From positions 1 to 64,000 of the forward strand of contig VFGY01000029.1 in the NCBI GenBank assembly GCA_009392195.1: 64,000 bases of DNA, written 5' to 3'. Made by a program: the position numbers and the translations under genes. This DNA comes from SAR202 cluster bacterium (lineage in GTDB: Bacteria; Chloroflexota; Dehalococcoidia; Lucifugimonadales; OSU-TB39). The notes under the pieces are model-generated. The model saw only the letters and a list, made by a program, of their open reading frames with translations, searched no databases and was not told where the DNA came from. Shown piece after piece: positions 49,620-52,819 of this stretch (position 1 is the stretch's first letter; each line of letters begins with the position of its first letter).

Positions 49620-50606
49620 TTAAGGTTTAATCAAAATTCTAATTGAATTTGTAGAATTATCTTTTCTTTGATTAATAATACTGTGTCCATTTTGTTCAGC
49701 CCAAATGACTACATCGTAAGTGTTAAGAATATCTGGGATAATAGCTTCAATCAAATTCACACCATTTTCAAGGATCCTTTGATCCAGTTCAGATAAAATA
49801 GAGGCACAATTTTTACCTGTTCCATCAACCACAATCCAATTTTCAAAATTCAAATTATCAATACTTTTATTTTGTACATTTTCAAGTACATTTATTTCCC
49901 CAGTTTGTCTCAAATTCAATTGACGTTTAAATTCTTTTACTGATTCCCAATACACACCCTTAGAACGATCTTGTTTAGCGCAAACGGCACCTCGAACCCC
50001 AACTATATCTGGATTTATTCTAGAGATTTCATCTAGATTTTGTAATTTCAAATGACCAGATAAAGCAGTACTAATACCCATTTTCTTACCCGAAAAAACT
50101 AAATCTCTCAACTGAGATTCTTCCATAAAATCAAATAAATTACGTCCATCTTTTGTTATAGTATCAATCAACCAGCCATCACAATTACCATCTACAGCCA
50201 AGTCTTGCATCAATCCAGGATCAATACCATCAGAAATTTCACTATCTGCAAATAAAGATCCTATGAGTTTTGTTTCAGACCCTTCTAAAGCTTCTTTTGA
50301 AGCTAGTAATATTTCCTTAGCTAATGAATATTCCGTATTCATAAAGCCAACTTTGACAGAAGTAGCGTTAAGTATCCCAGCTGTGTACACAGCCATAGCT
50401 ACAGTACCTACTTGCTTAGGTACAACTCCTAAAGTTACGCTAGCATGTTGCTCTAATGGAACTAAATCTCTAACTTGTTTAACCAAAACAGGATGCGCAG
50501 AACCAACCAATGCTTCTTGCAAATTCTTTACATCAACAATATCAGCCTCTCCCTTTATAGCATGTTTTGCTTCTTGTAAATCCTGAACACTAACCATTAA
50601 TAACAT
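49620..50606 (-). CDS. MfnB-like (5-formylfuran-3-yl)methyl phosphate synthase family protein with C-terminal TusA-like domain
   Basis: N-term LMVSVQDLQEAKHAIKGEADIVDVKN and LIDTITKDGRNLFDFM match DUF556/MfnB; C-term VDGTGKNCASIL...VVIWAEQNGHSII...IRILIKP matches TusA fold. Confidence 0.75.
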   Translation of the reverse strand: MLLMVSVQDLQEAKHAIKGEADIVDVKNLQEALVGSAHPVLVKQVRDLVPLEQHASVTLGVVPKQVGTVAMAVYTAGILNATSVKVGFMNTEYSLAKEILLASKEALEGSETKLIGSLFADSEISDGIDPGLMQDLAVDGNCDGWLIDTITKDGRNLFDFMEESQLRDLVFSGKKMGISTALSGHLKLQNLDEISRINPDIVGVRGAVCAKQDRSKGVYWESVKEFKRQLNLRQTGEINVLENVQNKSIDNLNFENWIVVDGTGKNCASILSELDQRILENGVNLIEAIIPDILNTYDVVIWAEQNGHSIINQRKDNSTNSIRILIKP

Positions 50607-51778: not shown

Positions 51779-52819
51779 TCATAAAAATGATTTTGCAAAT
51801 TCAAATGCTCCTTTACCATAAAATTCATGTTCGCCTTCAAAAATCTCATAAGAAAACGAATTTTTCGCACCAAAACAAGTAAATATTTGTTCAGCTTTTT
51901 CAATCGCATATTTTGTTGCATCAATTGGAAAAATAGGATCATTAGTTGCAGATTCTATAAAAAGCCCTCTTGGCGCAATCAATCCTGCTATATCATACAT
52001 TTCGGCATATTTTAATATTCCAGGAATATAATTGTCTATACAGTGATTAATATTAAATATGCTATCCTTAAAAGTACAAAAATATCCTGAAATAATTGCT
52101 AATTTGATTCTTTCGTCCAAAGCAGATGAAAAAAAAGACGTAGTTCCTCCTCCTGATAGACCCATTACAGCAATTCTATCAAAATCAATTTCTTTTCTAG
52201 TTTCTAAATAATCAATTGCAGACATAACATCTATTACACGCCATTTAATCATTGTTTCACCTAATAAAAACGCAGTCCCTGAAAGCAAATTACAAGAACT
52301 TTGAGATTCATTAGCTGAATCTAAATGATCTGTCGTTCTTCTTCTACCAAAACCAAATTGCTCGATCGCTAGCACTACATAACCTTGATTCACAGCTTGT
52401 ACTGCATAATTTTTATGAATACCATTAAAATTACCATAAGTTATGCCATTTTGTATCCCAACGACATCATTAACACCTCTTCCATGCCCATGAACGCACA
52501 TAATCACAGGCATTTTCACATTGCCAGAGAATTTGGGCACCAATAAAAAAGCAAACACTTTCATATTTTCTGCACTATCAAATAGTATTGTTTCTCTGGT
52601 ATAAGTACCAAAATCTTCAATTTTAATAACCTTTGAATTCAACTCACCTCTATACTTTGGTAAATCTCCAATCAATTCTATTAATTGAGATCTCATTATC
52701 TTTTGCCAAGACTCAGCCTGAGGAATAGTTTGAGCAGAAAAAGTTAGACTAGGCTTTAAATTTTGATATTTGGCATTTGTATAATTTAAAACTTCTAAAT
52801 TAATATCCTCTGAAAACAT
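51779..52819 (-). CDS. Alpha/beta hydrolase (acetyl-esterase / DUF1100-like)
   Basis: CVHGHGRG, VMGLSGGGTTSFFSSALDERI, ESATNDPIFPI. Confidence 0.85.
   Translation of the reverse strand: MFSEDINLEVLNYTNAKYQNLKPSLTFSAQTIPQAESWQKIMRSQLIELIGDLPKYRGELNSKVIKIEDFGTYTRETILFDSAENMKVFAFLLVPKFSGNVKMPVIMCVHGHGRGVNDVVGIQNGITYGNFNGIHKNYAVQAVNQGYVVLAIEQFGFGRRRTTDHLDSANESQSSCNLLSGTAFLLGETMIKWRVIDVMSAIDYLETRKEIDFDRIAVMGLSGGGTTSFFSSALDERIKLAIISGYFCTFKDSIFNINHCIDNYIPGILKYAEMYDIAGLIAPRGLFIESATNDPIFPIDATKYAIEKAEQIFTCFGAKNSFSYEIFEGEHEFYGKGAFEFAKSFL

Follow-up and report, generated by a model that had tools for sequence, protein, structure and literature searches.

A two-gene, three-domain module of SAR202 bacteria combines an MfnB-like barrel, a TusA-like domain and a DHDPS-family aldolase

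Introduction

SAR202 bacteria abound in the ocean, and understanding of them is still poor. The group now has cultured members (PMC10444878). Our starting point was a 64,000-nucleotide stretch of a SAR202 contig (hereafter, the window) and one gene within it. A sequence-only reading described the gene product as an MfnB-like furan phosphate synthase fused to a TusA-like domain, and suggested a methanofuran-like or sulfur-containing cofactor in a non-methanogen. What might such a protein make? The substrates of MfnB are two triose phosphates. Loss of phosphate turns one into an enzyme-bound methylglyoxal enol, and the other is converted to DHAP; enol and DHAP then condense and cyclise (PMC11365854). 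In bacteria that make methylofuran, homologues of MfnB, MfnE and MfnF occur together, in an archaeal-like C1 gene cluster (PMC8141765). The cysteine of TusA takes up sulfur from cysteine desulfurase (PMC11073785).

Results

The fusion gene and the source of its contig

The fusion is encoded by a single open reading frame of 328 codons (Table 1). The host belongs to the SAR202 Chloroflexota and is, as had been supposed, a non-methanogen. The window contig and one from SAR202 cluster bacterium OSU_TB36 (L032) are 100% identical over 12,984 bases. Similarly, the fusion protein is identical to that of G008, the window's species. The window's own bin, G000, is 9.2% contaminated and has two module copies on different contigs; the second (G000:C21:61611-62585) is 67% identical to the window copy (G000:C29). 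Given the two copies, and the identity to OSU_TB36 and G008, the bin seems to contain two species. The window contig probably comes from the OSU_TB36 species, not from the main organism of the bin. An assembly artefact, as the origin of the fusion, is ruled out because full-length (328 residues) orthologues, 55-100% identical, recur in 32 of 59 genomes from the same order.

Table 1. Coordinates of the fusion gene, its parts and the adjoining aldolase gene in the window.
Feature	Coordinates	Strand	Basis
MfnB-family (PF04476) barrel + TusA-like domain, P0001, 328 aa	49620..50606	minus	Profiles, HHalign, AlphaFold model
4-HFC-P-synthase-like TIM barrel, aa 1-228	49923..50606	minus	PF04476, MJ1099 sequence and fold, residue alignment
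Variable linker, aa 229-254	49845..49922	minus	Orthologue alignment, dN/dS
TusA-like domain, aa 255-328 + stop	49620..49844	minus	Orthologue alignment, profiles, HHalign, AlphaFold, Foldseek
DHDPS/NAL-family aldolase, P0002, 321 aa	50649..51614	minus	PF00701, residue alignment

A DHDPS-like aldolase gene accompanies the fusion gene at every locus

In all 41 loci, the fusion gene adjoins a gene for a DHDPS-like protein. This lies 42 bp upstream in the window, on the same strand, and some other loci have an overlap of 1-4 bp. Searches with the DHDPS-like protein recovered exactly the same 32 genomes as searches with the fusion protein (the probability is 2e-17 for independent draws, a figure that overstates the significance because the genomes are related). 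Furthermore, five genomes (G006, G013, G031, G043 and G050) encode both proteins as one open reading frame of 679-710 aa. Locus L039, which may come from the species of one of these five, does likewise. The order of domains is DHDPS-like, MfnB-like and TusA-like, with 29-58 residues linking the first two. Because of the pairing and fusion, it is well supported that all three domains act on one pathway. The sequence-only reading missed this obligate partner, which changes the likely pathway.

Orthologues are also found in further Chloroflexota bins. Outside the window's genome, a phylum sample of 301 genomes, mostly from other orders with few from the same order, contained no PF04476 protein. 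Every SAR202 PF04476 protein seen has the TusA-like domain and, except for the mixed bin G000, there is one module copy per genome. We compared 21 neighbourhoods, and no other gene family was beside the module in all of them. Hence, the module seems to consist of these three domains. Genes for RecG, DegV, a DAK-domain protein, PheA and Trk were rejected as members, since they recur in only part of the clade and reflect shared gene order. An alpha/beta hydrolase gene (acetyl-xylan-esterase/Abhydrolase_7 type; 51779-52819, minus strand) adjoins the aldolase gene. It was also rejected, being beside the module only in the window's closest relatives.

The aldolase matches PF00701 (E=1e-33), which places it in the DHDPS/NAL superfamily, and keeps the Schiff-base Lys174 and Tyr147. 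The Thr-Thr pair of DHDPS is replaced by Gly59-Met60, Arg138 by Phe152, and the second Tyr is also replaced. The protein scores 100 bits against a DapA equivalog cut-off of 206. As judged from these residues, the partner does not have the usual Thr-Thr carboxylate-binding pair, and pyruvate may not be its substrate.

The partner additionally matches models for 5-dehydro-4-deoxyglucarate dehydratase and NAL. Members of the DHDPS/NAL/KDG-aldolase superfamily are often catabolic lyases, and enlarged families of catabolic enzymes are a known feature of SAR202; paralogue expansions in the group are the subject of PMC6946804. Hence, the two aldolases could instead be a catabolic pair that breaks down recalcitrant sugar-acid-like or sulfonated compounds, with the TusA-like domain accepting released sulfur. 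We consider this improbable. The module is single copy, G000 aside, and under strong purifying selection. Moreover, no transporter or regulator is conserved beside it, and it looks like a fixed biosynthetic module.

The barrel keeps MfnB catalytic residues in a changed pocket

The first ~235 residues had been assigned to the MfnB family, and this holds. Residues 3-226 match PF04476 with E=2e-51 (175.4 bits against a gathering threshold of 22.4, spanning positions 1-227 of the 228 in the profile). The structure of MfnB from locus MJ1099 was matched by sequence (E=6.7e-39) and, using the whole-protein model, by fold (E=3e-22, 35% identity, TM 0.91 by target length). Weak or partial matches to P3_C, QRPTase_C and APH were set aside. 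Note that the SAR202 barrel, at 172.5 bits, misses the NCBIfam MfnB equivalog cut-off of 341.

The lysine-bearing motifs are DVKN, at 25-28, and DTITKDG, at 148-154. We aligned 41 SAR202 sequences with MJ1099 and six plasmid-borne bacterial homologues of MfnB. Residues D25, K27, K85, D121, D148, K152, R205, C209 and R214 are kept in all 41, so the catalytic lysines survive alignment, as had been expected. In MJ1099 numbering, Asp25, Lys27 and Lys85, which we take to be catalytic or substrate residues, have identical equivalents in every SAR202 sequence. The same is true of Lys155 and Arg217, for which catalytic or substrate roles are described (PMC11365854). Conversely, six positions that are invariant in the other seven proteins (Pro29, Gly32, Leu34, Ala36, Asp61 and Ala186) are uniformly changed in SAR202, with P29L, G32A, L34V, A36S and D61V in 41 of 41. 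Thus, the NPxxGxLGA loop which, together with Gly-Asp61, is common to MJ1099 and the six homologues, reads NLQEALVGS. With the lysines and Asp kept, and pocket residues swapped, the Schiff-base machinery is therefore intact and the pocket different. At the level of sequence, these subfamily-specific active-site changes argue against a plain MfnB. The change of Asp61 to Val may have altered or abolished 4-HFC-P formation.

An antisense open frame lies within the fusion gene (50263-50586, plus strand), with counterparts in many relatives. Rather than being a gene, it probably results from codon constraint on the conserved barrel.

Some MfnB homologues on plasmids have distinctive surroundings. 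On Streptomyces plasmids (L074, L075 and L079), the gene is followed by those for aldehyde dehydrogenase, alcohol dehydrogenase and a SAM-methyltransferase, and no C1 genes are annotated nearby. These are possible furan metabolite clusters. On a Phyllobacterium zundukense plasmid (L077:5992-7164), the homologue has 390 residues. Inspection by eye suggests that its additional C-terminal part is similar to a dihydroneopterin-aldolase (FolB) domain. The gene set there includes hydantoinase-like and HisA/HisF-like genes.

Methanofuran is not a plausible product

Membership of PF04476, and the conserved lysines, would suit a module that makes a methanofuran- or methylofuran-like C1 cofactor in SAR202. 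However, three methanofuran/H4MPT marker families, Mch, Ftr and MfnF, are each absent from all 59 genomes; methanogen controls, including M. jannaschii, were matched. The genomes compared are mostly metagenome bins, and incompleteness could explain one family's absence in one bin, not in all 59. Neither mfn nor fhc genes are among the conserved neighbours of the module and, as described above, the barrel falls short of the MfnB equivalog. Literature searches that combined SAR202 with either methanofuran or DHDPS gave no results. Since the markers are absent from the 59 genomes, methanofuran is not plausible as a product, and we advise against calling the protein MfnB. Synthesis of any such C1 cofactor is strongly disfavoured and, in our view, highly improbable. 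Hence, of the two cofactor types suggested by the sequence-only reading, the methanofuran-like one is unlikely to be made, while a sulfur-containing product is possible.

A TusA-like domain with a conserved cysteine

The sequence-only reading had also likened the last ~75 residues to TusA, and proposed searches with both Pfam profiles and an AlphaFold model. When the full-length window protein was searched alone, the TusA profile did not match. The isolated C-terminus aligned to nearly the whole of PF01206, below threshold (E=0.039, 14.2 bits against a cut-off of 28.6). Hence, of the two profiles, only PF04476 exceeds its threshold in the window protein. Orthologues gave stronger matches. Six of ten match PF01206 (best 9.8e-4), seven fused domains do so at E<=6e-4 in genome searches, and a consensus written by hand from orthologues matches at 5.7e-4. 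The fused domain of G015, at 28.8 bits, is over the cut-off. Using HHalign, comparison with TusA proteins of SAR202 from the same order gave P=3.5e-5 and a score of 29.3, where 100 column shuffles reached at most 18.2.

Modelled with AlphaFold, the domain (pLDDT 89.5) has the order beta-alpha-beta-alpha-beta-beta. It fits the SirA/TusA structures 3HZ7 (TM 0.74/0.81) and 3LVJ (TM 0.72/0.76), with an rmsd of 1.9 A. Foldseek E-values were modest, none below 0.001, and methyltransferases and Alba proteins ranked slightly better than TusA. Searching the PDB by sequence, with a profile of the domain from 10 sequences, found no TusA chain. Because of these weak PDB and Foldseek results, the TusA assignment rests on sequence profile and fold together. 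It is suggestive from the window protein alone and, with orthologues, convincing. The two outcomes that the sequence-only reading had named as refuting it, no TusA match at the C terminus and loss of the catalytic lysines on alignment, did not occur.

The features picked out beforehand, NCASIL, WAEQNGH and a terminal IRILIK strand, are all present. Asp261, Gly262, Gly264, Cys267, Glu287, Leu294, Asp298, Trp302 and His308 are invariant among aligned orthologues. Cys267, at the start of helix 1, aligns with the persulfide Cys of TusA. As had been noticed, the cysteine is kept without CPxP; nearly all orthologues have C-A-[SG]-I/V instead. Both domains are under strong purifying selection and the linker is not: for one pair, dN/dS is 0.05 in the barrel, 0.07 in the TusA-like domain and 0.52 in the linker.

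These observations bear on a reading in which the TusA-like domain serves only for docking or oligomerisation. Here, the product of the barrel would be ordinary 4-HFC-P or a closely related furan, destined for a metabolite outside C1 metabolism, and the partner would condense a keto acid with a furan aldehyde. Hydratase-aldolases of the DHDPS-like superfamily do condense keto acids with aromatic aldehydes. Retention of the MfnB catalytic residues and absence of CPxP fit this reading, and the Streptomyces plasmid homologues, having no C1 genes nearby, make furans outside C1 metabolism plausible. However, a docking domain would not need a cysteine, and Cys267 is invariant and aligned with that of TusA. 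In addition, Asp61 and the NPxxGxLGA signature are changed. We regard this reading as possible, though on the doubtful side.

Two further roles were rejected. Replacement of the thiazole synthase ThiG is unlikely, since true ThiG accompanies the module in most genomes. One of these is G008, which has an identical copy of the window's module. By our count, ThiG is missing from 10 of 32 genomes with the module, compared to 2 of 27 without (p=0.03), which is too slight a difference to carry an argument. A need for stand-alone TusA was discounted because canonical TusA shows no link to the module: by our count, roughly 7 of the 32 module-bearing genomes have it, as do 10 of the 27 others.

Elsewhere in SAR202, at L061, L062 and L064 (genomes G021, G006 and G003), a TusA-like domain is fused N-terminally to a MetE-like (Meth_synt_2) protein. 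Beside these fusion genes lie another TusA-like gene and one of the DsrE family.

Discussion

We read the module as a three-domain synthase, specific to SAR202, for condensing small phosphosugars, possibly with insertion of sulfur from Cys267. To our knowledge, it would be the first Schiff-base aldolase to contain a TusA-type domain. Lysine-imine TIM barrels served by a small sulfur-carrier protein are familiar from ThiG-ThiS and BexX. By analogy, the TusA-like domain, with its cysteine kept and its linker variable, could be a natural sulfur donor, as ThiS is for ThiG. Likewise, an enzyme-bound electrophile of the MfnB type might be a suitable acceptor for persulfide sulfur.

On this basis we tentatively propose a SAR202-specific two-gene, three-domain synthase that inserts sulfur; as a complete scheme, it could well be wrong. 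We infer the substrates, the persulfide on Cys267, the sulfur transfer, the order of steps and the product as follows. The MfnB-like barrel would form a Schiff base, at Lys27, with triose phosphate. Elimination and condensation, as in MfnB, would then give 4-HFC-P or a close C3-C6 relative. A cysteine desulfurase would load a persulfide onto Cys267 of the tethered TusA-like domain, and this sulfur would be delivered to the bound electrophilic intermediate, in the way that ThiS serves the ThiG barrel in thiazole synthesis. Through Lys174, the DHDPS-like enzyme would act on this intermediate too, adding a keto-acid-like unit or taking one off. The end product would be a small molecule other than methanofuran.

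For the sulfur-inserting scheme we count the invariance of Cys267 while the linker drifts, and the purifying selection on the TusA-like domain. The TusA-MetE fusions beside DsrE suggest, by analogy, that feeding of sulfur to barrels would not be unique to this module. Against the scheme, CPxP is missing and the persulfide chemistry of Cys267 is putative. Among the 21 neighbourhoods, the conserved neighbours include no sulfur gene, not even one for a cysteine desulfurase. The partner's replaced Thr-Thr pair and the change of Asp61 to Val in the barrel also weigh against it. The narrower claim, of a dedicated synthase in which the ring-forming aldolase includes its own persulfide carrier of the TusA type, and which makes a sulfur-containing small molecule (e.g. 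a thiofuran or thiophene phosphate), is a possibility that we rate as rather unlikely.

A conserved three-domain synthase suggests that a metabolite or cofactor of SAR202 has been missed. A TusA-type domain in an aldolase would extend the ThiG/ThiS idea to a different carrier family, and the trifunctional fusions offer a compact protein for direct testing of sulfur transfer from carrier to barrel.

Of known systems, MfnB (4-HFC-P synthase; MJ1099, PDB 4RC1/4U9P) shares the TIM-barrel fold and equivalents of the catalytic residues. The SAR202 protein differs in its added TusA-like domain, its DHDPS-like partner, the Asp61 to Val and NLQEALVGS changes, and a host in which no methanofuran marker was found. 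The Streptomyces plasmid clusters likewise have an MfnB homologue away from C1 genes, but neither TusA-like domain nor DHDPS-like partner. From the DHDPS/NAL family, the partner retains the superfamily profile, Schiff-base Lys and core Tyr, whereas the Thr-Thr pair, second Tyr and Arg138 are replaced and the DapA equivalog is missed. TusA/SirA-like carriers (PF01206; PDB 3HZ7, 3LVJ and 1DCJ) have the same fold as the fused domain, with Cys at the start of helix 1, and TusA proteins of SAR202 share with it a D-x4-W-A-x3-G-H-like pattern. Unlike these carriers, the fused domain has C-A-[SG]-I in place of CPxP, a weak profile score and a TIM barrel attached. Finally, in ThiG-ThiS and BexX the carrier is ubiquitin-like and bears a thiocarboxylate, whereas that of the SAR202 module is TusA-like.
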